DNA from: Dioscorea cayenensis subsp. rotundata
Taxonomy: Eukaryota; Streptophyta; Magnoliopsida; Dioscoreales; Dioscoreaceae
Direction: 5' to 3'
Length of the DNA stretch: 64,000 nucleotides
Assembly: GCF_009730915.1 (NCBI RefSeq)
Contig: NC_052476.1
Location: forward strand, 744,001 to 808,000
Made by a program: the position numbers and the translations under genes. The notes below the pieces were generated by a model. That model had not been told where the DNA came from, did not search any database, and worked only from the letters and a program-made list of their open reading frames with translations. This document shows positions 8,007 through 59,638 of the stretch, piece by piece. The number at the start of each line of letters is the position of its first letter. Positions within the stretch are counted from its first letter, which is position 1.

Positions 8007-9006
8007 NNNNNNNNNNNNNNNNNNNNNNNNNNNNNNNNNNNNNNNNNNNNNNNNNNNNNNNNNNNNNNNNNNNNNNNNNNNNNNNNNNNNNNNNNNNNNN
8101 NNNNNNNNNNNNNNNNNNNNNNNNNNNNNNNNNNNNNNNNNNNNNNNNNNNNNNNNNNNNNNNNNNNNNNNNNNNNNNNNNNNNNNNNNNNNNNNNNNNN
8201 NNNNNNNNNNNNNNNNNNNNNNNNNNNNNNNNNNNNNNNNNNNNNNNNNNNNNNNNNNNNNNNNNNNNNNNNNNNNNNNNNNNNNNNNNNNNNNNNNNNN
8301 NNNNNNNNNNNNNNNNNNNNNNNNNNNNNNNNNNNNNNNNNNNNNNNNNNNNNNNNNNNNNNNNNNNNNNNNNNNNNNNNNNNNNNNNNNNNNNNNNNNN
8401 NNNNNNNNNNNNNNNNNNNNNNNNNNNNNNNNNNNNNNNNNNNNNNNNNNNNNNNNNNNNNNNNNNNNNNNNNNNNNNNNNNNNNNNNNNNNNNNNNNNN
8501 NNNNNNNNNNNNNNNNNNNNNNNNNNNNNNNNNNNNNNNNNNNNNNNNNNNNNNNNNNNNNNNNNNNNNNNNNNNNNNNNNNNNNNNNNNNNNNNNNNNN
8601 NNNNNNNNNNNNNNNNNNNNNNNNNNNNNNNNNNNNNNNNNNNNNNNNNNNNNNNNNNNNNNNNNNNNNNNNNNNNNNNNNNNNNNNNNNNNNNNNNNNN
8701 NNNNNNNNNNNNNNNNNNNNNNNNNNNNNNNNNNNNNNNNNNNNNNNNNNNNNNNNNNNNNNNNNNNNNNNNNNNNNNNNNNNNNNNNNNNNNNNNNNNN
8801 NNNNNNNNNNNNNNNNNNNNNNNNNNNNNNNNNNNNNNNNNNNNNNNNNNNNNNNNNNNNNNNNNNNNNNNNNNNNNNNNNNNNNNNNNNNNNNNNNNNN
8901 NNNNNNNNNNNNNNNNNNNNNNNNNNNNNNNNNNNNNNNNNNNNNNNNNNNNNNNNNNNNNNNNNNNNNNNNNNNNNNNNNNNNNNNNNNNNNNNNNNNN
9001 NNNNNN
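8007..9006. other. Assembly gap (1000 N)
   Basis: Exactly 1000 N, so probably a placeholder rather than a measured size. Nothing can be said about its content. Confidence 0.99.
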
Positions 9007-23404: not shown

Positions 23405-24500
23405 ACACTTTCATCTTCACCATCATCATCATCATCAAAATTAACAAGATGTCCCTCTCTTCTAAGTATATATCATCATTCTTTTTACCATTCCATGCCG
23501 CGTCTATTCTTTAATATTGTGACTATAAAAAATTCATCCTTTCCACTCTTGGCGACTCTCATGACTCCCCTACTTTTGTTGAATTTGCTCAAACGTATGT
23601 ATATATTTATAATTTGTTCAAACGTGTGTATGTATTTATAAGCCTTGCATAATAAACAGATGCTTGTTTAGGGGTGTTAACGAGTCCCGCCCCCATCCCC
23701 GTTGGTGGTGGGAATGGGGATTCCCAGTCCCCTAATTTTCTAACGGGGAAATTGCTTCTCTGTCCCCGTCCTCACGGGGATCCTCAAGGAGATTCTCCAT
23801 TTGCAAACATTGATATTACATTTTAGTAATTTACTTATAAATTTTATTTTTTTAAAAAATAAATTTAATACCAATACATCTGAAAAAAATAAAATAAAAA
23901 TAAAAAACACTATATTCAAATAAAAAACACTATTGAATATAGGATACATACATGAAAACTACTTAGAGCTCAATAAATTTGTCAAACCAATATATATAAA
24001 AAAACTTATATATATATATATATATATATCAAAATAGTTTTCAATATAGATTCAAAATATTCATGTAAGCATGTGGTATGGTACAATCTAAAATTAAAGT
24101 TATTTGTATCCTTATTTAGCCCTTTGAATTTTTAAATATTGAGAAAAAATTATATATAAGAATCAACGGAGGAGATAAACAAAAGCGTTGATGAAAATAA
24201 TCTCAACCTAATCAGGTTCACAAATGAGAGGGGACTTTCATATATAAAAATTTGTAATCAATTATAAGATTTCTAATTCTTCATATATATATATATATAT
24301 ATATATACATATGTATGAATGTGTTTTCTTCTCTATTTCCAAAATTTAGAGATCTGAGCTGGGAAGAATTCCAAACAAAATGTACGGAATTATCCGACAG
24401 GCAATTTTGATCATGCATGAACAACACATAAATATGCAAATACAAACTCACCAATGCACCTAATTCCAATCCTCAGATGACACTAAATAAAAATCTTAAG
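23405..24500 (+). pseudogene. Aleurain-type cysteine protease relic (exons 1-3 only)
   Basis: Decayed copy of the 5' part of the protease at 27577-29248. Exon 1 homology runs 23405-23602 ('catcctttccactcttggc' and 'gaatttgctcaaac' match the complete gene). Exon 2 homology is near 24160-24235 ('ggaggagataaacaaaag', 'aatctcaac.taatcagg'). Exon 3 homology is near 24350-24500 ('gagctgggaagaattcc', 'caaactcaccaatgcacc'). All three are broken by stops and indels. No catalytic-domain exon follows. A GC-rich repeat (23668-23800) sits in the first intron. Confidence 0.85.
23668..23800. repeat. GC-rich repeat, possible hAT terminus
   Basis: Starts ttaggggtgttaacgagtcc and continues with C- and G-rich runs ('cccgcccccatccccgttgg', 'tggggattcccagtcccc'). 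A TAGGGGTGT start resembles plant hAT ends, but I find no matching second end or 8-base duplication, so the class is uncertain. Confidence 0.35.
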
Positions 24501-25548: not shown

Positions 25549-25837
25549 CATGTTTTAATAAATAATTAAATAAATGTGTACTCTAATTCTTTGTAGGTTG
25601 TGATGGCAATCAAGTGTAGAAGGGAATTGCTAGGACTTAATATAGGCATTGATACTAAATACATTGTTGCAGCAAGCAAAATGGTACTACCCTCCATCAT
25701 TATTTCATAATATATATATATTGGAATAACTCAGGTGAAGTGTCAACTGTGTAGTTCCTGTAGTTTTCAATAGAATGTTTACTACTATTTCAATAATGAC
25801 TAAAGCAAGCAGAGTTGTGGTGGGTTCATGGTTTATA

Positions 25838-25841
<4 letters not shown>

Positions 25842-25872
<31 letters not shown>
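25842..25872. repeat. (TA)n microsatellite
   Basis: Perfect TA tract in an intron of the isopropylmalate synthase fragment. Confidence 0.95.
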
Positions 25873-25879
<7 letters not shown>

Positions 25880-26380
25880 TGGAGACATACTGTAATTAAT
25901 GATATTATTGAAATATATACGAACTACACTTCTTCCACCTCAGCTAATTAAGTCAATCCTTTTCTCTTTATATATATAGATATATATAGTTGTATGTAAA
26001 TATTGATGAGTGTTATGTCTTATGATATTTATTTGTTAGTTTTTTTTAATCAATTATTATTGTTGGTGTAGGTTGCGGAGTTCACCGGCTTATATGTGCA
26101 ACCACATAAAGCTATTGTTGGAGTTAATGCTTTCGCCCACGAAAGCGGCATTCGTCAGGTGTGTATATATATATATATATATTATGCATTAAATATAATA
26201 TATATTGATTATTAAAAATAAAATAAATAAAAAATTATTGACAATAATTACTAACTAAAAAAATTTATTATTTTTGTAGAATTTTTCTGATGATGATATT
26301 GAAGCACTTGTTGGAAATAAAAATGGTCATTTAAAAATAATATGGTCACTTGGTGATATTCAAGTCCTAATGTATAACTT

Positions 26381-26819
26381 GGCAGATGAACAGATCTCTC
26401 ATGGTAAATAAAATCAATTTATAACTTTAATATTTGAGAAAAATTAATTCTTCATTTATAATCTTTTATAAATTTTATTTTCACAGAAAGACTAAGAATA
26501 CGATGGAATTATAAGTTATATTCAACAGCAGGGTGATTGTTCAGCTTGTTGGGCTTTCAGGTGATTGATATTACTTAATTAATTAATTATTTAGAATAAC
26601 AAATTAAATTATGAAATTAAAAAAAAAAATAACTACAATATACACATGAAATGCAGTGCCGAAGGAGCAATTGAAGCAGCAAAAAGTATAATGTTAAAGA
26701 TTTACTATCAGTACTGTCTCTGTGCGACTACTCAAAGATTGCTCATTGCTCTACTAAAAACAGAGGATGCACAAGTGGATGCCCAGCTGCAGCTCTGCAA
26801 CAGAATGGTGCCATCAACA

Positions 26820-26858
<39 letters not shown>

Positions 26859-26934: not shown

Positions 26935-27085
26935 TTGATTAAGCCGGCCTTGACAGTGATGTCTTTTGGATTAAAATGTACATGAACCTTCTTGGCTTGT
27001 GTAAGGATACAAATTGTCTGTCTTGATGCCACCTTTGTCTCTAACATTCATAAGAGGTATACCATGCATTCCACTGTAATGTTAT
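26935..27085 (-). pseudogene. Inverted papain-family fragment
   Basis: On the minus strand this reads VRDKGGIKTDNLYPYTSQEG then SCTFNPKDITVKAG, the papain-family segment around GGIxTxxxYPYT. It resembles RNGGINSDPSYPYTGTEG in the gene at 31613-33393. It is oriented opposite to the relic just before it, so an inversion or independent insertion happened here. Only one exon piece is recognisable. Confidence 0.75.
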
Positions 27086-27317
27086 GTTAATGTAATGGTT
27101 GTTAATTAATTCAGTTAATAAACTCTTACTGTGGTTTTGATCTTCTGCTTTATATGCATGCAATCAATTATTTCTCTCCATCATTCATCTCTAATTATAA
27201 AATAATAATAGTCCAAACAAACATTTGAATATGCTTGTTATATTATGTTATATAATGTTAGTTTTCCATGAATTTGTCCCCAAATAATGAAAGCAATGTA
27301 TGTATACTTATATACAT

Positions 27318-27760: not shown

Positions 27761-29248
27761 ACTAAGCATTGTATATATAATTAATCAATATTGTTAGTTC
27801 TATAGTTGTATTTATTTATATTTTTACTAATAATAGGTATGGAAAGAGGTATGAATCAGTGGAGGAGATAAACAAAAGGTTTGGTCTGTTCATGGATAAT
27901 CTCAACATAATCAGGTCCACAAATAAGAAGGGACTTTCATACAAACTTGGAATTAACAGTATGATTTCTCATTCTCAATAAAGATTTTTTTTTTTATATA
28001 TATAAATCTATATATATGTATACAAGCATGTATGTATTTTCATTTTGGATTCAGAATTTACTGATATGAGCTGGGAAGAATTCCGATCAAACAAGCTTGG
28101 TGCTGCGCAGAATTGTTCGGCAACTCTCAAAGGCAATCACAAACTCACTGATGCACCAATTCCCCAAACGGTACTAAATAAAAGTCATGCATGAACACAT
28201 TAATCTGCAGAAATTTTTTTTTCAGAAAATTAAGAATGTAGAAATGCATGCATGATTTTAATTTGTTGTTGTAGAGAGATTGGAGAAAAGAAGGAATTGT
28301 GAGTCCTGTTAAAGATCAAGGTGAATGTGGATCATGCTGGACTTTCAGTGCAACAGGAGCACTAGAAGCAGCACACTGCCAAGCAACAGGAAAGAACATT
28401 ACTCTTTCTGAACAACAACTTGTGGACTGTGCTCAAGCCTTCAATAACAATGGATGCCAAGGAGGATTACCTTCTCAAGCTTTTCAGTATGTTAAGTACA
28501 ATGGTGGTCTTGACACTGAAAAATCATACCCTTACAAAGAAACTGATGGCACTTGCAGCTACAAATCTGAAAATATTGGTGTCAAAGTTATAAACACAGT
28601 TAACATCACCATGGTATGAACAATCAATCAATCAATTAGTTAATACTTTTGTGTTTGTGTGTATCTATCCATCTATCTATCTATATAATATATATATATA
28701 TATATATGATTTGAAATTCATTGTTGATTTGAGATAGGATGCTGAAGATGAACTAAAGCATGCAGTTGGAGTTGTTAGGCCAGTGAGTATTGCATTTGAA
28801 GTGGTGCAGAGTTTCATGTCTTATAAAAGTGGTGTGTACTCTAGTGACACATGTGGAAGTTCTCCAATGGTGAGATTATTATAATTAACTAAGTAGTGTT
28901 TTAATTAAGTATTAATTAGAAATTTTAAATTATAATTAGCATTTATTAATTAATGTGCATTTGTTTGTAGGATGTGAATCATGCTGTTCTTGCTGTTGGT
29001 TATGGAGTTGAGAAGGGTGTACCTTATTGGCTTATTAAGAATTCATGGGGAACTGAATGGGGTATGGATGGTTATTTCAAGATGGAACTGGGGAAGAACA
29101 TGTGTGGTTAGTTCGTTAATCTCATTAATTACGGGCACTAATTATCTGTTTAATTGATTTAATTAATATCGCTAAGAATTGATCATGAAGTGATTTTTTT
29201 ATTGTAGGTGTGGCTACTTGTGCTTCCTACCCAGTTGTTTCTGCATAA
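27577..29248 (+). CDS. Aleurain-like (cathepsin H-like) cysteine protease
   Basis: Seven exons: 27577-27728, 27837-27958, 28055-28170, 28275-28613, 28738-28869, 28971-29106 and 29208-29248. All are GT-AG and in phase, giving 345 residues. A signal peptide ([15 protein letters not shown]...) precedes an I29 inhibitory propeptide ([42 protein letters not shown]) and the C1A domain starting near [12 protein letters not shown]. Catalytic residues: Gln and Cys in [10 protein letters not shown], His in [11 protein letters not shown] and Asn in LIKNSWG. The [12 protein letters not shown] and CASYPVV segments are typical of aleurain. The product should enter the secretory route to the vacuole and act as an aminopeptidase/endopeptidase after propeptide removal. 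The NPIR vacuolar signal of classical aleurain is not preserved (SSSPMATK instead). No intron splits WTF/S here, unlike the gene at 31613. TATA-like tatttaaat lies near 27525. Confidence 0.95.
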
Positions 29249-31320
29249 CCAGTAATGTGAATTAATGAGCACTGATTAAATGCTCTATTATTATTATTAT
29301 GATGATGATGATGATGTTGGAATTAATGTAAATATCTGAAAGTGAATGTATGAGTCAGAGTCCTTTCAAAGAATGAAGCTTCACTTCTGGTGGACTTTGT
29401 ACCCTTCTTATGTTTGTTCTATTATTTTCAATGAAGTGGTGGTTTATTTAAATTTTTTTTTTAAAAGGTTTATATCAAGTCATCACTTGCTCTTAAATTA
29501 AATGCAAAATTTTCATTATTAATAATTCTCGTTGTATTTTTAACTTTTATGATAACTTCTAATGCTCGACATTTTTGAAGGATTTTCTTGTATGTAATAA
29601 TAAATAAATAATGAAAGATGTCTTTTAATAAATAGAATTCTCATCATAAAATTAATTTTGGTTAATAAAACTGATTTATTATTAATAAATTAACTCATTA
29701 AAGTATTGAAATTTTAGATCTTCTGCGTCTTTATTCAATAAATCAGTGGTTCATTCATTTTATTAAAAAAAAAAAAAATTTAAGATACGAGAAATAGCTT
29801 AGAAACCTCAGCCAACCAGGGTTGGACTCCTTTCTATGATATTATTGATAATTTAATCCTTGTATGAGTGTCCTAGCTTGGTCTCATTTCTAGCAGTGCA
29901 TCTTCATCTCTCCACTCAATAATACAATAACAATAATTTGGACAATAATCAATGTGAAGCCTTAGGAATAGGTACAAAACCTTTGGCCACTATCCCAATA
30001 ACCAAATAATAATGTATTTGACTTCTATATGGGAAGTAAAAACATTGGACCATGCGGGTGATGGAGGTAAACAAATTGTTCATTTAAATTGAAAGCTTGA
30101 ATGGTATGATGGAACACCTGTGTTACGTTATTGGGTAGTTTACATTTGAAAATTAGTTGATTAGGCAAGTGTCAGTCTGGAGGGAAATAAAGTCTGATCA
30201 TGGATAATTGATCAGTTTATTTTGTTTTGTTTTATTACATTGTTTATTTTCAAAGTTTACTGATCAATAGAAAAATCAAACATATTTTTATTAATTTAGC
30301 ATGTTTCTTTATATTCATTTGTATTATATTTTTAGTTTAATAATTTATTAAATATTAAGATCTTATCCATAAACTCATTATCAGTGCAAGTGATTTATCA
30401 ATTTTTCATTAAAAAAATTATTAGTTTTTTTTTTATAAACCGTGGCAAGGCCTCATAAAAAAATGTCAAAAGAACAAGTAGGTACATGCATTAATAAAGG
30501 TGGAAATTTATCATATGGGGCAAGGGTCACATAAGACACAATTAGGGCCTTGGATTAGAACATAAAAAATTAGAATTTTTTTTTAATAACAAATAAGGAA
30601 GCAAATCAAGTGATATTGGGCTTTAAAAAACATTGGCGATTCTGCAATATATATCAAATGGCCAAGTAAATGTTCTTCAAAAAGTTTAAAAATAAAAGAA
30701 TAAGTATTATGTCATCATTATATATATACATCCACAAAATATGTGGATTTAATAAGAAAATTATAAATTTTATAAACAAAATTTTGCCTTCATAAAAAAT
30801 TAGGAAAAAGTCAGAACTCTAATAACTAAATGGTAACCCATCAAAAATTAGGAAAAAAGTCAGAACTCTAATAACTAAATGGTAACCCACTTGATTCGAT
30901 ACAAAAATTTAGGATTAACAATAATATATATAGTAAGGTTTAATCACCATACATGAGCCAAAAGTGAATTACAAATTTTTATAAAAATAACTTTTGTCAT
31001 GATCCTGCAATATTTGTTTAATTTATAATTATTTTTAAATTTACAGTGACTCAGTGAGTAGTGACTAAAATATGAAGTTTATAAGTGTATTTGTTAAAAA
31101 GAATAATCAAACATATTTATATAGACATCACTTACGTACCCATTAGATTTCTTTTAAAAATTATTAATTTTCATATAAAATAAATGAAAACAAAATCTGT
31201 CAAACAATAGTAAGGGTAATCGTTAGGTAAATCACACTAAATTTATGATAGATGGTTATTAGCTAGCACACTTATTAAACTAGAAATTTTATACTACTAA
31301 TACCACCAACCTAATTTTTA
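29249..31320. other. Intergenic between the two protease genes
   Basis: The first ~470 bases (29281-29720, presumed 3' UTR and flank) are duplicated, diverged, at 37900-38640. An approximately 48-base sequence is tandemly repeated at 30794-30841 and 30843-30890 ('gtcagaactctaataactaa'). The rest is AT-rich with no gene seen. Confidence 0.6.
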
Positions 31321-31612: not shown

Positions 31613-33393
31613 ATGATGACGCGTATGTTTCATCTCCTACTCCTGATCATCATAGTCCGCAGCATTGCATGTTCTTCTTCCTCAACCCGGCCTAGCACAA
31701 TCAAGAGCCTCATCCTTGCTACTCTAGGACGCTCAAATGACTCACTGACTTTCGCTGATTTCGCTCAAAGGTGTGTGCGTCTATATATGTATATATAAGC
31801 TTTAGATAATGAAAATAATTAATATAAGTGTGTTTTTTTATTTATTTATTTTATTTTCCAATGATAGTTATGAAAAGCAATATAAATCAGCAGAAGAGAT
31901 ACACAAAAGATTTGGCATCTTCATGGATAATTTCCATAGAATCAGATCCACAAATAAGAAAGGTCTTCGTTTCACAGTAGGAATCAATGGTGAGGCTTAT
32001 TCTTAATTGTTCTTAAAATATTACAATTGATTCTTGTTTTAGAATAAACTAGTTATTTAATAATTATAAAATCTTTATATATATATGTGTGTGTGCTAAT
32101 TAACTTATATACCTGTGTGGTTTGAAACTCAATCAGAATTCACAGACATGAGCTTCGATGAATTTAAGTCTAAAAGACTTATTGAATGGAATACCTCAGT
32201 GCCTTTGGCTAATAGAACCAGGATTTATAACTTGACTGACGCAGTAGCTCCTCTGATGGTAGATTAAACCAATCTATAATTTTAATATTTGAAAAAAATT
32301 AATTCTGTACTTATAATAATCTTTATAAATTTTATTTTCACAGAAAGACTGGAGAAATGATGGAATTATAAGTCCTGTTCGACAGCAGGGTGATTGTTTT
32401 GCTTGTTGGGCTTTCAGGTGATGGTATTAATTAACTAATTAATTAATTAAAGTAACAAGTTAAGTTAAATTATGAAATTAATAATAAAAAAAAAATTACT
32501 ACAACATATGCATGAAATCCAGCGCTGCAGGAGCAATAGAAGCAGCAAAAAATAAATTGGAAAACCAGACGGTCACTGTCTCTGTGCGGCAACTAGTAGA
32601 TTGCTCTACTGCAGACGGTGGATGTGAAGGTGGAAGGACAGATAGTGCTTTTTTATATGTTGCACGGAATGGTGGCATCAACAGTGATCCATCCTATCCT
32701 TACACAGGCACAGAGGGCACTTGCAGCTTTGACCCAAATCACATTGCTGCCAAGGTCACTGGTGTAGAATGGGTCCATTATGTGAGTAGAAAACCGTACA
32801 TATATGTTATTAAGTTTCTCTGTGTGTGCATGTGAGAAAGAGATAAATTTTGTTTTTAACCTATGTATGTTTGAATGCACGTCACGTGTATATTAATTGT
32901 GCAGGGTGACGAAGAAGACCTGGAGAAGGTAGTGGGCCTTATAGGGCCAGTCAGTGTTGGGATTCAAGCAGAAGGAGACTTCCTGGACTACAAGGGTGGA
33001 ATTTATCGCACTACTTCTTGTGGAGATCCAGGAGTAATTATTATTTACTGTGCTTGTGTTTCTTTTGTTTTAATTATTAAAAATATATATATATATATTT
33101 GTGAAGCTTATTGTTTAATTGTTGTTCCTCTTATGTAGAAGCTGAACCATGCGATGCTAGTTGTGGGGTATGGGCTTGATTATTTTGATGATCAACCATA
33201 CTGGATATTGAAGAACTCATGGGGAGATGGCTGGGGAGTGGGCGGATATTTATTTATGGAAAAAGGAACAAATATGTGCGGTGAGTTAATTATTTATGAT
33301 GAACAAATTGTTATTCAGATTATAATATTTAAATATCTTGATTAATTTGATGCAGGTGTGGCTTATGTGGCTAATTTTCCTACCGTTGAATGA
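31613..33393 (+). CDS. Papain-family cysteine protease with unusual active-site lead-in
   Basis: Eight exons: 31613-31770, 31868-31989, 32137-32258, 32344-32417, 32523-32781, 32905-33033, 33139-33280 and 33356-33393; all in phase, 347 residues. A signal peptide and Ser-rich linker precede an I29 propeptide like that of the 27577 gene (LTFADFAQ, IHKRFGIFMDNFHRIRSTN, FTDMSFDEF). The mature domain (KDWRNDGIISPVRQQGDC) has the oxyanion Gln and catalytic Cys, but the invariant Gly-Ser before the Cys is Phe-Ala (CFACWAF). His (LNHAMLVVGYG) and Asn (WILKNSWGDGWG) are present. The middle (TVSVRQLVDCSTADGGCEGG, YPYTGTEGTCSF) looks more like general papain/SAG12-type proteases than aleurain. An alternative start is the next codon (ATG 31616). 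Probably active, perhaps with altered specificity; the Phe-Ala change could lower activity. Confidence 0.92.
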
Positions 33394-33853
33394 CTATGTA
33401 AATGAGTGAATTAAATTTTTCTTATGATCCAGAGTAGTCCTACTCTATTTGCTGGGCAAACTTGTGTCTCCAGACGGTAGCTTTATCCGGCCCAGTCTGT
33501 CTCCTTTACTCTTGTTTCTTTTATGTTTTGTACTATTTTTTTCTCTGTTTTTCTCATCTTTGGTAAGGATTAAGATTGTTGTTATCTTTAGACCCACTTG
33601 TTATTTTTTCTCCGTTGTACTTCTCTGTATTTTTTTTAAAAAAATAAATTAGTGGTTTACTCACTTTTTTTCCAAAAAAAAATGCATATTAAGTTTTTTT
33701 TAATGTTGTAGTCTTCACATTTAGTGGGTTTTTTGGACTTTTGTTCAAGTCTTTTATGTAATATTTATTATTTATTAATAAATTTATGTTTTATCTATTT
33801 TATTAAAAAATTTATTTTATATGTATTAAGCATGTTTTTTTTTACTTCTTAAT

Positions 33854-34334: not shown

Positions 34335-34982
34335 ATGGTGCGCCTTGTTCATCTCCTTCTTATCATCATCACTCTCTTCACTATTTCATGTGTCTCTTCT
34401 TCTTCTTCAAACCCTACTATGACAACCAAGGACTTCATCCTTGCCACTCTTGGCCACACTGATGATTCCCTTAATTTTGCTGAATTTGCTGAAAAGTGTG
34501 TATATATATATTTATAAGCTTTAGATATATAATGAATTGACGTTTGTTATATATATATGTAGTTGCAATTTTTTTATTTATACTATTATTATTATTATTA
34601 TTTTTCCTATGATAGGTATGGAAAGAGGTATGAATCAGTGGAGGAGATAAAGAAAAAGTTTGCTGTGTTCAAGGATCATCTCAAAGAAATCAAGTCCCAT
34701 AATGAGAAGGGATTAAGTTTCACACTTGGAATCAATGGTTATTAAAAGATTCCTCATTCTTTGTATATATTTTTATTTTTAAATATAGGTATGAATGCAT
34801 ATATTTTTTTATTTTTGTTTTCAGAATTTTCGGATATGACCTGGGAAGAATTCAAAGCAAAAAGGCTCAGATATAAATGTTGTGGGAAGAATCCAACCCA
34901 AAAATTAAGGCCCTTCAACTTCGATGAGTTTCAAAATAGATCAAGGCTTATCAACTTCCGAAGGCAACTACAAACTCACTGA
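34335..34982 (+). CDS. I29 propeptide-only gene, copy 1 (no protease domain)
   Basis: Three exons, 34335-34495, 34616-34737 and 34825-34982, in phase with GT-AG borders, giving 146 residues. Exons 1-2 and the start of exon 3 match the full proteases: signal peptide (MVRLVHLLLIIITLF), SSSSSNPTMTTK linker, and I29 fold with [36 protein letters not shown] and FSDMTWEEFKAKR. After that the frame runs through a novel tail (RYKCCGKNPTQKLRPF) and ends QLQTH-stop. No catalytic Cys, His or Asn exon follows, only scraps of a last exon at 35109-35314. The reading frame of the propeptide is clean across two introns. It is either a young pseudogene or a secreted or vacuolar stand-alone propeptide-type cysteine-protease inhibitor, as known for CTLA-2 and crammer in animals. 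Confidence 0.7.
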
Positions 34983-35108
34983 TTAATGCACCAACTCCAC
35001 AAACTCCACCAAATTAGAGTCATGCATGAATATATATATATGAAACTCACATGAATGTGCATGCATTAGTTTGTTTTTTTTTTTTTCTTCTTCTTCTTTT
35101 ATTTTCTT

Positions 35109-35314
35109 GAAGGATCATCTCAAAGAAACTCACCAAATTCGATGCAAGTGTGGCTTATGACATATTAAGCTTGTTTTTTTTTATGTTGTAGTCTCCATAT
35201 TTAGTGGCCTTTTGTGGACTCTTGTTCAAGTCTTTTATGTAATACTTATTTTTTTATTAATAACAATTTGATGCAAGTGTGACTTATATGGCTAATTTTC
35301 CTATCATTGAATGA
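35109..35314 (+). pseudogene. Scraps of exon 2 and two last-exon copies
   Basis: At 35109-35160 an 'aaggatcatctcaaagaaa' piece of exon 2 abuts 'gatgcaagtgtggcttatg', the start of the last exon. At 35267-35314 a fuller last exon recurs ('gatgcaagtgtgacttatat', 'ggctaattttcct', ending in TGA), matching 33349-33393. Between and after are copies of the 3' flank of the second protease gene. The catalytic exons are missing, so an internal deletion joined the propeptide part to the 3' end. Confidence 0.75.
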
Positions 35315-36059
35315 TTGTGTACGGGCGAATTAAATATTTCATATAAAAAATAATTGCATGTTAAGTTTGCTTTTATGTGATCGTTTTCTTTATATGTTGT
35401 AGTCTCCCTATTTTATGGTTTTTTTGGACTTCAAATCTTAATGTAATATTTATATTTTATTAATAAATTTATGATTTATTTATTTTATTAAAAAAATATT
35501 TGTATCTATACATGATTGCATGGCTTTATATGATATTTTTTTTTGGTTTTTTGTACTTCTTGCTTGCATGTTTTTATATATCTTCTAATTTAAGTTATTA
35601 ATCCAATTTTTTTAAAATAATCTATTCATACTATTAAAATAGATGTATAATCTCTTCCTAGAGTGATTCAAAGAACAATTTAAGTTTTTTTTATTATATT
35701 TAAGTTTTATTTATATTATTTATGACATTAATTATTAAAAAAATTTTAATTACATTTATTTATTTATGCAATAAATATCTATAAGACCTTTGAAATCCAA
35801 AATATATAATATACATGATATTACTTAAGAACCCTCCTCATAATTTTAAAAACTCTAATTAATGCATTGCTCAATATATCTGTATATAAATATATATATA
35901 TATATATTTAGAATTGAAACATAACTATAGATAAGATAATTTGTGATATATATCCAACCACATCTTAACTAATTCCTAACAAACAGAAGTTCTTAATAAC
36001 TCGATCGGTCCATTCATTCTTTTCCAACAATCTCCTTCATCAAAATTAACAAATTAAAG

Positions 36060-36886
36060 ATGGCACGTCTTGCTCATCTCCTTCTCATCATCATCATCAC
36101 TCTCTTCACCGTTTCATGCGTTTCTTCTTCTTCTTCTTCAAACCCTATTAAGACAACCAAGGACTTCATCCTTGCCACTCTTGGCCACACTGATGACTCC
36201 CTTAATTTTGCTGAATTTGCTGAAAAGTGTGTATATATATATTTATAAGCTTTAGATATACTCCCTCCGTTTTTTTTTATCTCTCGTGAATAATCGAATC
36301 TCACATAACAAGAAAGTTGGTTATTTCACATAATTTAATAAAACTTACTTATCTTTTCAAAATTACCCCTAATTTATATTTTCACATTTCTCTCATATTA
36401 AATTTCAAGAAGAGAATTGAATAGAGTGTCAGGGTAATTTTGAAAAAAAATAATAAATGCTTCTGGATGTTTAAATGACAGAAAAGAAAGGAGAGAGTAT
36501 AATGAATTGATGTTTGTTATATATAGTTGTAATTATTTTTATTTTTACTATTATTATTATTTCCTATGATAGGTATGGAAAGAAGTATGAATCAGTGGAG
36601 GAGATAAAGAAAAGGTTTGCTGTGTTCAAGGATCATCTCAAAGAAATCAAGTCCCATAATGAGAAGGGACTAAGTTTCACAATTGGAATCAATCGTAATT
36701 AAGATTCATCATTCTTTGTATATATTTTTATTTTTTAAATATAGGTATGAATGTATATTTTTATTTTTGTTTTCAGAATTTTCGGATATGACCTGGGAGG
36801 AATTCAAAGCAAAAATGCTCTTCAACTTATTAGATGAATCTGAAATTAGGAATGTTCATCTCCGAAGGAAACGACAAACTCACTGA
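36060..36886 (+). CDS. I29 propeptide-only gene, copy 2 (no protease domain)
   Basis: Three exons, 36060-36226, 36573-36694 and 36777-36886, in phase, 132 residues. Signal peptide MARLAHLLLIIIITLFTVSC, then SSSSNPIKTTK, which is close to the NPIR vacuolar-sorting signal of aleurain. The I29 core is intact (NFAEFAEKYGKKYES, VEEIKKRFAVFKDHL, FSDMTWEEFKAKM). A short basic tail ends RRKRQTH-stop. The terminal QTH-stop and following bases are shared with copy 1, so the truncation came before the duplication. Exons 1-2 are about as similar to copy 1 as recent tandem duplicates would be. Intron 1 carries a Stowaway MITE absent from copy 1. No catalytic exon follows. Same two interpretations as for copy 1; two clean frames favour use or recency. 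Confidence 0.7.
36261..36497. mobile_element. Stowaway-type MITE in intron 1
   Basis: A 237-base element beginning ctccctccgttttttttta and ending ggagagag, with TA on both sides (36259-36260 and 36498-36499). The paralogous intron at about 34518-34535 reads tttagatatataatgaattg without the element, a natural empty site. CTCCCTCCG is the canonical Stowaway (Tc1/mariner) terminus. Confidence 0.9.
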
Positions 36887-37899
36887 TTAATGCACCAACT
36901 CCTCAAACTCCAAATTAAAGGCTCTTCTTTTTTCTTTTTTTTTTCTTTTTCTTTTCTTTTCTTGTAGGAAGATGTCACTTGAAGAAAATTAGGATTTCTG
37001 ACTTTTGTGCTTTATCTTTGAAATAAGTTTTTTTATACATATTTAAATAAAATAAAATCATCTTTCTTCTCAATAGTGTGGTTTGATTTGAGATAATCAT
37101 TAAAAAGATTAAAATTAAATATATTGAGAAACAGATAAATTCTTTTGGAATGTTTCAGGATAAGAATAAAATTAAAACTAAAGAAGATAAAAAGATAAAT
37201 AAAGAAAATAAAAAGAGACGATAAAGGATAAAAAAAAACGGAAAGGAATAAGAAGATAAATGAATAAAAAAAAATCCCGGGAGCGTAAATAATGGGTGGG
37301 TAATAGTTAAAAAAAATTGATGCAAAGGGACAAAACGGAAAAAAAAAATTTTTAAAAAAATTTATAATAGACGACATCAATGCATGAATAATACAGTGGA
37401 TAGTTTTGTGCGAAGGTTGAATATGACTCTTTCCACAATGATTTCACTGTAGACTATTTGAATTATTTAGGGCCATAGGATCGGGGTTTATTACCAATTG
37501 CTTTTACTGCTAGACTAAATATCTATCTGTGAAAAAAAGATATTAACTGTTATTGTTTTAAATTTTTTTTTTTTTTTAAATATGGGCAAGCAAAGTATTA
37601 GAATGTTCACTCGCATGGAGTATCTCAAGTTTTTTAACACATTTGCTTAAGCTCAAGTTTGAATCTGTATCTTTTCATGATATAAATACTCTAAATAAGT
37701 ACTCAGTGCTAATTGATGAGAGGTTGTTAGCAATTTATAATATCTTTAGGGAGCTGATCATGGAAGAACCCTTTGCAATTTAATTATCTATTCATCACCT
37801 TTCCCCTCTCACCAATTTGTGTGCTCATAAGGCCTCACCATAGCTTTAGCCATACATAAATATCCCTTATATTAACTCAAATGCTCTATTATTATAATT
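36887..37899. other. Intergenic
   Basis: Starts with a pyrimidine run (about 36920-36964) and continues AT-rich and purine-rich (37150-37370). No gene recognised. Confidence 0.5.
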
Positions 37900-38640
37900 A
37901 TATATGTTGCAATTAATGCAAATATCTTGAAGTGATTTATAAGTTGAAGTTTGTGAGTTCATGTCTTTCCTTGTTCCTCATCATTCAAATGCAAGATTCT
38001 TATTATTAATAATAGTTCTAGTTTTATTTTAAAATTCCATTACACCTTTTAATTATTAATAGTTTTTGAAGAATTTTCTTGCATGCAACAAACAAATATC
38101 ATTTTTATCTGTTATAAACACATATTCCTTTTTATCTGTCATTTTTTAATATCAAAAAATATTTATTATTTTTTTCCCAAAACTCCCTAATACTTTATTC
38201 AATTCTCTTCTTGAAATTAAATATGAGAGAGAACAAAAATTTATAAAAAATTAGTTATCTTTCCAAACTACCTTTAATTTATATCTTCACATTGCTCTCT
38301 CATATGTAATTCCAAGAAGAGAATTGAATAGAGTGTTAAAAGTAATTTTGGTAAAAAATAATAAATGCTTTTTGATGTTAGAAAAAATGACAGATAAAAA
38401 GGAACATGGATTTGTGACCGATAAAAAGTAACGGAGGGAGTATAAATTAGATGTAATTTTAGAAAGATAACAAATTTTTTGTAAAAATTTGTGAAATAAC
38501 TTGTGAGATTCGGTTGATCACGACAGATAAAAAAGAATGGAGGGAGTAAATAAATAAATAGGTTTCTCGTTAGAAAATTTAATTTCAGTTAATAAAACTG
38601 ATTTATTATTAATTTATTTATTCATTAAACTATTGAACAT
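37900..38640. repeat. Duplicated protease 3' flank, split by MITEs
   Basis: Segments 37900-38100 and 38570-38640 align with 29281-29600 and 29630-29720, the 3' flank of the complete aleurain-like gene ('gctctattattat', 'gcaaatatctt.aagtg', 'gaa.gattttcttg.atg', 'ttaataaaactgatttatta'). Stowaway-type elements at 38124-38546 separate the two halves. This marks the end of a lost protease copy. Confidence 0.75.
38124..38546. mobile_element. One complete and one half Stowaway-like MITE
   Basis: The first (about 38124-38404) has inverted ends 'ttcctttttatctgtcattt' and its reverse, and shares 'aagaagagaattgaatagag' and 'aataataaatgctt' with the element at 36261-36497. The second part (about 38442-38546) matches one terminal half of the 36261 element in reverse and ends ggagggag before TA. 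A further ggagggag at 38433-38440 suggests nested insertions. Confidence 0.75.
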
Positions 38641-40142
38641 TCAGATACGGAAGTCGCTTAGTCACGTGCCGTTAGCGCCAGGGCATGCATTTCCCCACGA
38701 GTTGACTCGTGTGCGTTGCTATTCCGGCACGTGCCTTTTGGCGCTTACTTTAGCAATTATGGACGGTGTAGATGATGACACTCATTGTAAAAAGACATAA
38801 ACACCCCTCCAGCAACTAATCAGTCTAATCTAGATTTTTTTTCTTTATTTAATTAAAATTTCATTAAACTTCAAATCAAGTTATCTAAGGACGTAAGTCA
38901 ACGATTTCTAGAATGATTAGAGTACAAGTTAAGGATAATATAATTTATTCCAATTAATTAATCATAAATTTAATACATTTTCAAGAGTGGCGTGTCCTCT
39001 TGTGTAAATATAACTTTTGGTTGGAAATTTTTTAATTTTTGACATCAGATTAAATATATCATATATTAAATTTTCTTCATTTAAAATTTTATACTTTATC
39101 AATATTTCATTAATTCATCTCATATTATCCCTTTGTTTTGCAAGTAATATATTTCTTTATCTTGTTACATTAATTTCTAAATTGCAATTATTCTAAATGT
39201 ATGGAGTAGCAATCTTATAAATATATAGCTTACCAAAAAAAATATATATTTAAACTAACAAAAAAAATATAGTTTTATAAGATCAAGCGCATTTCCAAAT
39301 ATGAGGGTTAGCGCGCTCGTGAACCCTTCTCCCAGATGATCGTATTTTCTGAGATCTGTTTCTTTTACAGTGATAGTTGTTTTCCTGCCACCCCTTTTTA
39401 TTAGTAGTTGGGTCCCCTTTTTTTTATTTTTTTAATGTTATCTTTTTATCTCTAGTAATTTGTGTTTTTTGGGCAATTTTTTTTATTAAAATTAAATTCG
39501 TGGTTTATTTACTTTCGTTGTTAAGTTGAATAAATTGAGCCCTCACAAACCGGTTAACTATAAACAATCTGAATAGTAAAAAAAAATGAGGTTGTTGCCT
39601 TGTTGGTTGTAATTTGGACATTGAGATATGATTATTTGGCCAAAAATACAAGTAATTAATAATTGGCAATCATAGTATAGAAGGCTAGTTTGGTAATTTA
39701 GCTAGTCTTATGTCTAGCCAATGACAATGAGGCTTCGGATTCTTCTCCTCATGTACAAGAAACAATCTTTGAAAAGTGAGAGTTTTAGAAGGAAAAGCCT
39801 CATTTTTCTCGAGGTTCAATCTCAGTTTCAGCGAATTCCGGTTCTTGCCACGCAATTTCTCTTCCAAATTAGGGCTCACAATCACTATCTTGGAATCCTA
39901 ATTCGTCTTCATTCCTTCCCCTTTTTCTTCAAAAGCCCCAAATTTTGAGCCCTCTCAGACAATCCAGCCCCAGAAATTTAGGGTTTTTTGTCTTTCAATT
40001 TGTTTTTGTATATAAATTCTTCACAAATTCATTTTTTAGGGTTTCAATTCTCCTAGATTCGTTGTTGGAGCTTGAAATTTCACCAATTTCTTTGTAAATT
40101 AGGGCGTAAAACTCTATAAAAATTCCAACTTTGATTCTGACG
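38641..40142. other. Intergenic and RSH 5' region
   Basis: 38650-38760 is a GC-richer island with two gtgcc-type G-box sites ('cacgtgccgttagcgcc' and 'ggcacgtgccttttggcgc') that form a loose inverted repeat. The rest is AT-rich; about 39720-40142 is probably promoter and 5' UTR of the RSH gene. No gene seen. Confidence 0.45.
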
Positions 40143-42881
40143 ATGTCGGTGCCGGCAATCGCGCTCTACGCTAGTCCGCCAAGCCACCACCCGTGCCAGC
40201 TCGCTTCTGCGTCCTCCCATGGCTCGCCGGAGCATGACTTCAACCCCCGGCCATGTCCACCGTCCTCTTGCCCTAAGCCGATCGCCATGGGTGGCCTCTC
40301 CTGCCTCTTCTCCTCTTCCACTGCCCGCCACACTGCCGACGAGCTTAGCTCCATCTGGCACGACCGCTCCGATGATCTCTCCAGCCCCTTCTCCTTCAAG
40401 TCCCGTGACGCCAGCCCTGTCTCGGTGTTCCGCGGCCCTGTTTCCTCCAGCCGGAGTCCACCATCGTTTCGGATCCCTAAGGATTGGATTGGATGTGATT
40501 TGAGGACGGGAAGAGACAGGCTTTTCCGGGGGTTCGTGAGGAATGCTTTGGGATCTTGTTTGGACTATGATTCTCCGAGCTTTCCCATGCCTGGAAGCAG
40601 GGGGCTTGATTCAGAAGAGCTTGCTTTTGATTTGGAGGATGGTTTGGATGTTATGGCGCCAGCCTGTGAGCCCTACGCCAGAGAATTGCTTGCCGGAGCA
40701 CAAGAAAGGCATAAGATTTTCTATGAGGAGCTTGTTGTGAAGGCGTTCTATGAGGCTGAGAAGGCTCATAGAGGGCAGGTGATTAATCTTGACTTTTGGA
40801 GAAGAAAATAAGAAATAAAAACTTGATCTTTGTCATGCTCAGCTGTTCAATTTTAGAAGTTTGTTTTTCAGGATTTGGATGAAGGCTTGTTTTTGTTATA
40901 CTTTTCAGGTGAGGGCGAGTGGTGGTCCATATTTGCAGCATTGTGTGGAAACAGCAGTGTTGTTGGCGAAGATTGGTGCTAATGCCACTGTTGTTGCTGC
41001 CGGGCTTTTACATGACACATTTGATGATTCTTTTATGGATTATGATTATATTTTTCGGTCTTTTGGAGCTGCAGTTGCTGATCTTGTTGAAGGGGTAACA
41101 GATCTCTTTCTTATCTTTCTTCTTGTGTGTTGAATATATATTGACAATTTCTCTAAATGTCTCTCTTCTTTACCATTTATGCATCATTCATCCCTCTGTT
41201 TACATACACATCAATGTTAAGTGTGTGTAGTATATAATGGTCTCCCTCAGCTGTAGTAAGAGATTCTAATGTAGTAGGAATGGTGAATATTTTTATTGCT
41301 TAGCAGACAGTTCGGAAGATAAACTCATATTTTGTGTTTTATGCAGGTCTCAAAGCTTAGTCAATTGAGCAAGCTTGCTCGTGACAACAATACTGCTAGT
41401 AAGACTGTTGAGGCTGATCGGTTGCACACGATGTTTCTAGCCATGACAGATGCTAGAGCTGTTCTTATCAAGTTAGCAGACAGACTACACAACATGATGA
41501 CCCTTGATGCTCTGCCCATGGATAAGCAACTGAGATTTGCTAAAGAAACTTTGGAAATCTTCGCTCCATTGGCCAATAGGTTGGGGATCTCGAGTTGGAA
41601 AGAGCAACTAGAGAGTTTGTGCTTCAAACATCTTTATCCCGGCCAGCACAAAGAGCTGACTTCTAAACTCATTAGTTCATTTGATGAAGCCATGATAGCT
41701 TCTGTTATTGAGAAACTAGAGGAGGTTCTCAAAGCCGAAGGTGTTTCTTACCATGTTCTTTCAGGAAGGCACAAGAGCTTGTACAGCATTTACTCGAAGA
41801 TGCTCAAGTATTTTCACTCTCTTTTACTCACTTTTCTTAATAAAAATGATAAGATGTGATGCATGTTGGACGAAATTAATAATATCTTGATGCTCAATTT
41901 CAGGAAGCAGCTAACTATGGATGAGATCCATGACATTCATGGGTTGCGGGTGATAGTTGATAAAGAAGAAGATTGCTACACTGCACTTAACATTGTCCAT
42001 AATTTATGGCCCAAAATTATTGGAAGGTTTAAAGATTACATTTCTTGTCCCAAATTCAATGGGTATGTCTTTGAAGATCGTTGTTTCTTTATGATCAAGT
42101 TCAGCTTTATTTACATAACATTTACATTTGCCTTCTCTTTCAGTTATCGATCATTGCATACTGTTGTTATGGGGGAAGACATGCTTCCTCTGGAGGTGCA
42201 GATCCGAACCAAAGAGATGCATCTTCAGGCTGAATATGGATTCGCCGCACATTGGAGATACAAGGAAGGTGACTCCATGCACTCATCCTTTGTGCTTCAA
42301 ATGGTTGAATGGGCGAGATGGGTCCTGACTTGGCAGTGTGAGATAATGAACACTGATGGCTGCTCGTCTCTTGGCGAATCAGAGCTGGTTAAGCCACCAT
42401 GTCCATTCCCTAGTCATTCTGAAGACTGCCCTTATTCATACACACAACAATGTGACCATGATGGACCTATATTTATCATAATGCTTGAAAATGAAAAGGT
42501 AGACATCTTTGTGTTTTCGAACTTTAGTTTTATTGAATTCTTCTCATACAGAGAGATAAATGTATAATGATGCATTTGCATGGAAATTTCAGATGTCTGT
42601 GCAGGAGTTACCACCGAATTCAACGGTAAATGATCTCTTGGAGAGGGCAAGTCGACGGAGTTCAAGATGGGCACTTTATAATTTACCGGTGAAGGAAGAG
42701 TTACGACCAAAGCTGAATCACGAACCGATTTGTAACCCGAAACAGAAGCTTTAGGATGGGTGATGTGGTTGAGCTGACACCGGCGATACCTGATAAATCT
42801 CTAACTGAGTATCGCGAAGAAATCAAGCGTATGTATGATCTTGGGCTTGCTGTTCCAACCCAAGGAAGATGGAGAAGCTGA
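40143..42881 (+). CDS. RSH: RelA/SpoT homologue, RSH2/RSH3 type, one +1 frameshift
   Basis: Plastid (p)ppGpp synthetase/hydrolase. Six exons: 40143-40778, 40909-41094, 41347-41807, 41904-42062, 42144-42498 and 42593-42881; in phase, about 694 residues once one extra base is discounted. The Ser/Pro-rich N-terminus looks like a transit peptide. HD domain: [30 protein letters not shown] and [10 protein letters not shown]. Synthetase domain: [28 protein letters not shown] and [17 protein letters not shown]. The C-terminal TGS-like region has [16 protein letters not shown] and [20 protein letters not shown]. The frame breaks at 42750-42752 (TTT): as printed a TAG appears at 42752-42754, but the last ~43 conserved residues continue one base off. 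Both hydrolase and synthetase motifs look complete. Controls plastid transcription, translation and stress metabolism by alarmone level. Confidence 0.93.
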
Positions 42882-56660: not shown

Positions 56661-57251
56661 TTAGGGGTGAAACTCATGGACCACCAAATAATAAGTAATA
56701 ATAATCATTATAATAATAAACCGAATAACAGTTGAGTTTATTCCGAGGAAGACCCTCCAAGCAACTTTCTTATACTTGATGACATCCTCAACATCCAAGA
56801 AACTAAACTTCCCAACAATATTTGCCTGCAAATTATTACCAAAAAGAGACAAAGAAGTCAACTGAGTTCTTGGTTCAGAGCTACTGAAAATAAAGAAAGC
56901 CTTAGCTGTGTCATTGCCAGCATTAACAATGAAATGCAGCAAACCTTCAGGGAAAACTATGGTATCACCTTTCTCAATATTTTTATAGTACACATTGTTC
57001 GCCGAGGATATGAAACCTGCGATCAGTGAGCCCTCAGTTACAACAACAATCTCCGATGAGCCAGATGTTTGATGTATTGGCTAGTTGTCGAAAGCCGGAA
57101 AAGATGAAGTCATCAACTGTGATATTTTCAGGACTCTTGCAGGAGTAGCCGGAGGGACCTGCACGGTGAGGTCAGCTAAGCAGAAGTCTTGAACTGCTGC
57201 ATTTGAGGTGGTGGAGATGAAGAAGATGAAGAGGATGATGATGGGTAGCAT
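56661..57251 (-). pseudogene. Germin-like protein pseudogene
   Basis: Minus-strand relative of the gene at 59017-59638. It starts with a signal peptide (MLPIIILFIFFISTTSNAAV) and DFCLADLTV, then loses frame. The family segment SGYSCKSPENITVDDFIFSG follows in another frame. About 34 residues before cupin box 1 (PGLNGLG... to the HxH) are deleted, and box 1 survives only as HQTSGSSE. Box 2 (GDTIVFPEGLLHFIVNAG) is conserved, but the C-terminus diverges after DVIKYKK. Loss of the HxH metal ligands means no manganese site and no oxidase or SOD activity. TATAAAAA lies at 57296-57303. At least two frame breaks plus the deletion make this a true pseudogene rather than an assembly artefact. Confidence 0.85.
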
Positions 57252-59016: not shown

Positions 59017-59638
59017 CTAGTTCATACCACCAAGCACAGCCTTAAGCTTCTTCACCTGAGCATGATCCAAGAACGTAGTCTTCTCAATGATTATAGAAGG
59101 CAAACTACTTCCAAACAATGCAATTGAAGTAATCTGAAGCCCAGGGTCTGAACTACTAAAACTAGCATAAGCCACTGAAGGAATACCACCAGCATTAATC
59201 TGAAAATGAAGTAAACCTTGAGGAAAAATCATAATGTCACCTTTGTGCAATGTTTTATAATAAACGGAGTTCGATGATGAGATAAAGCCGGCCTTAATTG
59301 AGCCTTGAACTACGAGTAGGACTTCATTGCCGCTGGGGTGAGTGTGGAGAGGGACGACGCCGCCTGGTGCAAGGTCTGAGACGAGCTAGTGAGATGCCGA
59401 GACCGTTAAGGCCGGGGAATTGGGCGGCAAAGGCTGGGCTAACGGCGGCTTTGATGATGTTGGTTGTGTTTCCTGGTTGTTCAAAGCCATTGAAGATGAA
59501 GTCATCGATGGTGACCTTTGTCGGAGACTTGCAGTGGTAGCCGGAGGGGGTTTGAGGGGTGGTTATGTCGCCGACGCAGAAGTCCAGGGCTGTGGAGGAG
59601 GATGGGAGGAGGAGGAGGAGGAGGAGGAATGGAAGCAT
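59017..59638 (-). CDS. Germin-like protein (cupin), one +1 frameshift
   Basis: Intronless minus-strand gene; 206 residues if one extra base is discounted. Signal peptide [17 protein letters not shown], then [20 protein letters not shown] with the two family Cys. Then come [31 protein letters not shown], cupin box 1 ([14 protein letters not shown], with both His and the Glu) and box 2 ([18 protein letters not shown], with the third His). The C-terminus [15 protein letters not shown] is typical. It is an apoplastic hexameric Mn-binding glycoprotein; family members show SOD or other oxidase activity and defence roles. The frame breaks near 59377 (one extra T on plus), just before box 1. The pair with 56661-57251 is a tandem duplication in the same orientation. 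Confidence 0.9.

Follow-up and report, generated by a model that had tools for sequence, protein, structure and literature searches.

Two tandem I29 propeptide-only frames, probably remnants of an aleurain-like gene, in a cysteine protease cluster of Dioscorea

Results

The protease cluster and its relics

The window analysed here, a stretch of 64,000 nucleotides from Dioscorea cayenensis subsp. rotundata (assembly GCF_009730915.1, contig NC_052476.1, positions 744,001 to 808,000 of the forward strand), harbored two full papain-type (C1) protease genes, termed G1 and G2, two decayed relatives, P1 and P2, and two shorter frames that encode an I29 propeptide domain, termed copies A and B (Table 1). 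G1 and G2 are located upstream of the two copies and each carries its own propeptide. G1 was the closest kin of A and B within the window, and its best PDB match was pro-cathepsin H (6czk, E = 1.8e-101), with the QNCSAT mini-chain included. G2 had no Cys of a QNCSAT-like mini-chain, had GS replaced by FA ahead of the active-site Cys, and possessed one intron more than G1; its specificity is possibly altered.

Table 1. Coordinates of the protease genes, the I29-only copies, and related DNA in the window
Feature	Position	Strand	Basis
P1: fragmentary I29 exons of the A/B family (23421-23611 and 24157-24461), stops in matched stretches	23421..24461	+	DNA comparison
P2: decayed G2-like fragment around exons 3-5, with stops, GDCSACWAF kept	26370..26824	+	DNA comparison
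G1: intact 7-exon aleurain/cathepsin-H-type protease, 345 aa	27577..29248	+	gene model, Pfam, PDB match
G2: divergent C1 protease, 8 exons, 347 aa	31613..33393	+	gene model, Pfam
Copy A exon 1: signal-like N-terminus and propeptide start	34335..34495	+	in register with exon 1 of G1 and G2
Copy A exon 2: I29 core, ERFNIN-type helix	34616..34737	+	gene model and Pfam
Copy A exon 3: I29 end (GINEFSD), then frameshifted tail to QTH-stop	34825..34982	+	gene model, G1 alignment
Copy A exon-3 end and former exon-3/intron-3 junction, 78% like G1 28121-28195; donor gone	34952..35030	+	DNA comparison
31-nt stretch, 84% like A's own exon 2 (34659-34689), filler-like scar DNA	35098..35128	+	DNA comparison
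24-nt remnant like G2 intron-7/last-exon junction (33344-33367)	35136..35159	+	DNA comparison
Remnant, 86% like G2 downstream DNA (33685-33781)	35161..35263	+	DNA comparison
Remnant, 83% like G2 last exon and flank (33344-33425)	35265..35344	+	DNA comparison
Second remnant, 81% like G2 downstream DNA (33693-33825)	35383..35510	+	DNA comparison
Copy B exon 1	36060..36226	+	gene model
237-bp TA-flanked insert starting CTCCCTCCGT, intron 1 of B only	36261..36497		A/B alignment
Copy B exon 2: I29 core	36573..36694	+	gene model and Pfam
Copy B exon 3: I29 end, then short tail to QTH-stop	36777..36886	+	gene model, G1 alignment
Behind B: 76% like G1 just past the stop codon (29278-29355)	37879..37944	+	DNA comparison
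Behind B: 69% like G1 3' flank (29475-29683)	37959..38170	+	DNA comparison
Behind B: 79% like G1 3' flank (29600-29719)	38527..38646	+	DNA comparison

P1 offers a yardstick of decay against which A and B can be set. Just upstream of P2, positions 25600-26330 gave a weak Pfam match to HCS_D2 (E = 0.0083), and we take this stretch to resemble 2-isopropylmalate synthase exons; P2 lies beside it, so two gene relics appear to have been joined. On the reverse strand, 26948-27101 showed a weak match (60-65%) to the catalytic exons of G1 and G2 and is perhaps a further, inverted relic. Because G1 and G2 stand beside the decayed P1 and P2, we conclude that the cluster both gains and loses copies.

Elsewhere in the window were two Cupin_1 frames on the reverse strand (56661-57080 and 59017-59385), presumably of germin-like proteins, and an HD_4 domain frame (41323-41856) that we assume belongs to a RelA/SpoT-homologue gene. 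The only run of Ns is a scaffold gap of 1000 unknown bases (8007-9006).

Two three-exon frames with a complete I29 domain

Copy A (34335-34982, 146 aa) and copy B (36060-36886, 132 aa) each comprise three exons in an open frame that ends in QTH and a stop codon, and all four of their introns have GT-AG borders. Their exons line up in register with exons 1-3 of G1 and G2, with an exon-1 donor that reads AA/GT versus AG/GT in the two full genes. The Pfam I29 profile (PF08246) was matched over its full length, positions 1-59 of 59, at 63.8 bits in A (E = 1.9e-17) and 66.6 bits in B (E = 2.5e-18), with a gathering cut-off of 24.4 bits, and the same profile search of both products returned no Peptidase_C1 match. 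Two clean three-exon frames with a signal-like N-terminus and an I29 domain, as an earlier, sequence-only reading of this DNA had described them, are borne out by the exon models, the GT-AG introns, and Pfam. That reading had also called the I29 fold intact: completeness holds for the profile match, and the fold itself is a prediction from profile matches only. We considered chance frames as well, and these were ruled out by I29 scores far beyond chance and by the exon register with G1 and G2.

Copy A was 82% identical to B and 54% identical to G1. Its best PDB sequence matches were the propeptides and zymogens of C1A proteases, and crammer (2l95) was matched at E = 1.5e-4. Motifs were scored with the usual ERFNIN and GxNxFxD patterns. 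In the alignment GxNxFxD was kept in both copies, as GINEFSD in A and GINQFSD in B, and the ERFNIN positions, assigned by eye, read E-K-F-H-I-N in A (4/6) and E-R-F-H-I-N in B (5/6), with all six present in G1; thus Asn had become His in both copies, and in A the Arg was also gone. Behind the signal, B carries NPIK, which we take to be close to the NPIR vacuolar signal, and A carries NPTM, neither of which is found in G1.

Loss of the catalytic half

The shared QTH-stop proved to be an out-of-frame reading of DNA that spells KLTDAP in exon 3 of G1. In addition, a 4-bp insertion (ATTA) after the stop is common to A and B, and the exon-3 donor GT of G1 (ACG/GTACTAAAT) is missing in both A (ACTCCACCAAAT) and B (ACTCCAAAT). 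Since the frameshift, the insertion, and the donor loss are shared, the truncation is older than the duplication, the order of events that the sequence-only reading had proposed.

Homology of A to G1 extends to about 35030, the start of the former intron 3. No catalytic exon followed either copy in tblastn searches of the whole window (E up to 1) or in blastn searches of 34983-36059 and 36887-38200, in agreement with what had been noted before from the sequence, and the idea of hidden catalytic exons behind A or B was rejected on these searches. Elsewhere in the window, catalytic exons were confined to G1, G2, P2, and the weak reverse-strand piece at 26948-27101. These searches bear on whether A and B might be the first exons of ordinary proteases, the catalytic exons of which were misassembled away or lie further off. 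The scaffold gap shows that the assembly is a draft, and the DNA around A and B is repetitive, but this sole N run lies 25 kb away, the window holds no catalytic exon beyond those just listed, and the lost exon-3 donor and the frameshift are identical in the two copies. The donor loss common to both copies goes most of the way to refuting an artefact of gene model or assembly, which we regard as extremely unlikely.

The DNA behind both copies retained pieces of protease genes (Table 1). Behind B, the pieces that resemble the 3' flank of G1 are collinear with the G1 order, so B resembles a G1-type gene from which the middle and the catalytic part are missing. A short stretch further on (39476-39546) resembled the 3' flanks of both G1 and G2. 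The insert in intron 1 of B is presumably a Stowaway-like MITE; related DNA was present downstream, partly inverted at about 38126-38551 and partly self-complementary over about 38102-38551.

Relative to the parent gene, A and B carry disabling lesions of the kind seen in unprocessed pseudogenes, namely a frameshift, a lost donor, and missing catalytic exons. They are devoid of the catalytic C1 domain by which an aleurain/cathepsin-H-type protease is recognized, and each encodes an I29 domain without a peptidase domain, as do the genes of stand-alone I29 inhibitors of the CTLA-2, crammer, and BCPI type.

Divergence of the two copies

Noncoding DNA of A and B differed at 17 of 358 aligned positions (upstream 6/138, intron 1 6/107, intron 2 3/81, downstream 2/32) and coding DNA at 20 of 328 (exon 1 12/161, exon 2 5/122, I29 part of exon 3 3/45; Fisher p = 0.50). 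Because the introns of A and G1 have diverged to K = 0.31-0.34, as compared with 17/358 between the copies, the duplication is young relative to the split from G1.

The exon-3 tails (A 34868-34951, B 36820-36860) were far more different than the surrounding DNA, with 20 of 65 aligned positions differing and a net indel of 48 bp. For tail A, the score was reached by 2 of 500 shuffles against A's own exons and by 8 of 500 against the G2 gene, and for a segment of it that was picked afterwards and compared with G2 exon 3 by 7 of 500, which is weak given 15 comparisons. Nothing clear emerged for the origin of tail B, where 45 to 340 of 500 shuffles reached the scores. Intron 1 of A and B shared 12 sites with G2 and 10 with G1, and the other four segments favored G1; the alignment would be consistent with a possible conversion tract in this intron.

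Selection and frame maintenance

Pairwise dN/dS between A and B was 0.25 over the signal and propeptide (9 synonymous, 9 nonsynonymous changes) and 0.31 over the propeptide alone (3 synonymous, 4 nonsynonymous), and comparison of either copy with G1 gave 0.85-1.15 across these two ranges. We then used a branch model on four sequences, with significance taken from 100 neutral simulations. The dN/dS between the copies, on which the sequence-only reading had proposed to judge the function of the I29 part, spoke for constraint over the whole frame of signal and propeptide, where post-duplication omega was 0.25 (2dlnL against omega 1 = 7.32, reached in 0/100 simulations), and not over the I29 propeptide alone, where an omega of 0.35 was indistinguishable from 1 (2dlnL = 1.65, reached in 29/100). 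Moreover, the low whole-frame value reflects the abundance of synonymous changes within exon 1 and is therefore weak evidence of constraint. Synonymous differences stood at 9/68 versus the noncoding 17/358 (p = 0.013), and nonsynonymous differences, again relative to noncoding DNA, at 9/253 over the frame (p = 0.55) and 4/189 in the propeptide (p = 0.16).

On the stem leading to A and B, omega exceeded 1, with the statistic reached in 4/100 simulations for the propeptide and in 12/100 for the whole frame, the latter not being significant. Parsimony, in which six more changes were unplaceable and G2 served as a distant outgroup (dS about 1), assigned 15 nonsynonymous, 0 synonymous, and 2 mixed propeptide changes to this stem and 11 nonsynonymous, 3 synonymous, and 2 mixed to the branch of G1 itself. 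When freed, omega on the G1 branch was also raised (0.56-0.86), and fast change is therefore not special to A and B.

All three coding indels between the copies (3, 3, and 48, the tail being counted as one event) were multiples of three, as opposed to one of eight noncoding indels (4, 28, 5, 8, 1, 2, 4, and 3, with the 237-bp insert left out; Fisher p = 0.024), a result that is suggestive only, because triplet repeats, where slippage is by three in any case, account for two of these coding events. Under neutrality, both copies together would have been expected to gain about 0.9 stop codons, to undergo about 0.5 losses of a start or splice site, and to collect about 7.7 indels that break the frame, the last figure being based on the noncoding rate, which is inflated by AT repeats; none was observed. 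The surviving frames are mild evidence of constraint, and overall the evidence of selection on A and B is mixed.

Discussion

Young remnants or working inhibitors

We consider that A and B are probably duplicated 5' remnants of an aleurain-like (cathepsin-H-type) gene, young members of a birth-and-death cluster whose frames survive and that are possibly transcribed. Consistent with this are the frameshifted end, ATTA insertion, and donor loss shared by the copies, the decay of P1 and P2, the debris behind both copies, the equal divergence of coding and noncoding DNA, the propeptide omega of 0.35 that was indistinguishable from 1, the diverged tails, and the loss of the ERFNIN Arg as well as the Asn in A; the open frames and splice sites, the frame-keeping indels, the whole-frame omega of 0.25, and the absence of the lesions expected at neutral rates speak against it. 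Remnants are favored over working inhibitors because constraint on the I29 part could not be demonstrated and because damaged copies are plainly being discarded in this cluster.

Exon 3 has changed frame, which brought an early stop, its donor has been lost, and the catalytic exons are missing; the DNA behind A retains scraps that resemble the last exon and 3' flank of G2, and the DNA behind B retains scraps that resemble the 3' flank of G1. The truncation, being common to A and B, predates their tandem duplication. What is left has the capacity to encode a signal peptide, a complete I29 domain, and an unconserved tail. If translated, the product would be predicted to enter the secretory pathway, where it could bind a G1-type protease in trans in the manner of a propeptide, making that protease the first candidate partner.

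Alternatively, A and B may be working stand-alone I29 inhibitors, in which a propeptide that is secreted or sent to the vacuole would engage mature aleurain-type proteases, G1 first, in trans, threading their active-site cleft as it does in the zymogen, and damp their activity. We treat this as a serious, though less favored, possibility. The complete I29 profile and the GxNxFxD motif of both copies agree with it, and a role change followed by constraint would fit the stem rich in amino-acid changes, the frame-keeping indels, and the post-duplication omega of 0.25; however, the propeptide by itself gave no significant post-duplication constraint (29/100), the whole-frame result for the stem was not significant either (12/100), the G1 branch also had a raised omega (0.56-0.86), and the Asn of ERFNIN is His in A and B. 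Excised plant propeptides do inhibit in trans: the available part of PMC3355106 describes C1A propeptides, those of barley among them, as competitive inhibitors that can act in trans and with selectivity, and that of PMC6010012 reports inhibition in trans by a recombinant Calotropis propeptide. A more detailed version, that a beheaded aleurain gene turned into a pair of stand-alone I29 inhibitors by their target through a burst of amino-acid changes in the ERFNIN helix once the catalytic half was gone, followed by frame-keeping constraint after the duplication, appears somewhat unlikely to us; if true, it would provide a plant counterpart of CTLA-2 and crammer with an independent origin from the cathepsin-H branch.

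The free propeptides could also serve mainly as foldases or stabilizers of neighboring proteases in trans and not as inhibitors. By analogy, cathepsin L is stabilized at neutral pH by CTLA-2 alpha, and also by crammer but not by BCPI (all from the accessible text of PMC4089206). Such a role is very unlikely here, as G1 and G2 have propeptides of their own and there is no visible need for a helper in trans. Hence, of the stand-alone inhibitor or chaperone that the sequence-only reading had put forward, what stands is a pair of I29-only frames that arose by truncation before duplication, and the functional part meets mixed evidence, with constraint in the whole frame and the indels set against the null result for the propeptide alone, the equal divergence of coding and noncoding DNA, and the decayed kin nearby.

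Comparison with known systems

The aleurain-like, cathepsin-H-type proteases, exemplified by G1, are similar to A and B in the positions of exons 1-3 and in the complete I29 match, and differ in that A and B are without a catalytic domain and a QNCSAT mini-chain and have a frameshifted end. Among animals, CTLA-2, crammer, and BCPI are the studied stand-alone I29 inhibitors, as presented in the available part of PMC4089206, and seven stand-alone I29 proteins are reported from the Colorado potato beetle in that of PMC5792627. A and B resemble these proteins, the beetle CPID genes included, in having I29 without a peptidase, and A matches crammer 2l95; unlike CTLA-2, crammer, and BCPI, they are of plant aleurain-type origin, have a longer tail, and are described here as sequences. 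The accessible text of PMC4089206 places C75, the Cys that CTLA-2 alpha uses, near the active-site cleft and C72 of crammer in the homologous region, where BCPI has none. Cys113-Cys114 of A, which we count in favor of the inhibitor reading, lies near this position, 6-7 residues past A residue 107, which was paired with crammer-chain residue 72 at the end of the phmmer match. B has no Cys in this region, in which it is like BCPI.

In plants, I29 is treated as always joined to a peptidase in PMC4189545. Among the titles and abstract openings of the open-licence literature searched, none described a functional stand-alone plant I29 gene. Transcript-aided curation in pineapple yielded 58 genes that encode I29 and 53 that encode I29 and C1 together according to the portion available of PMC10354200, which by subtraction leaves five I29-only models. 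These share with A and B the presence of I29 without C1 within the plant C1A family, a likeness matched by domain description only, and the same portion of that paper does not discuss them as inhibitors. If A and B are relics, then intact-looking inhibitor genes can arise as debris, which would call for caution with I29-only gene models of plants. If they are working genes, the view of plant I29 as always joined to a peptidase would need revision, and the birth of an inhibitor from its own protease would be traceable step by step in a single cluster, where the truncated copies still lie next to decayed relics and to a close relative of full length. The nearest plant parallel in function is SPI-1 of Arabidopsis, described in the available parts of PMC11371169 and PMC7017114 as a stand-alone I9 propeptide-like inhibitor of subtilases, which would share with A and B the design of a free propeptide-type inhibitor in a plant and differs from them in belonging to the I9 family and in targeting subtilases.
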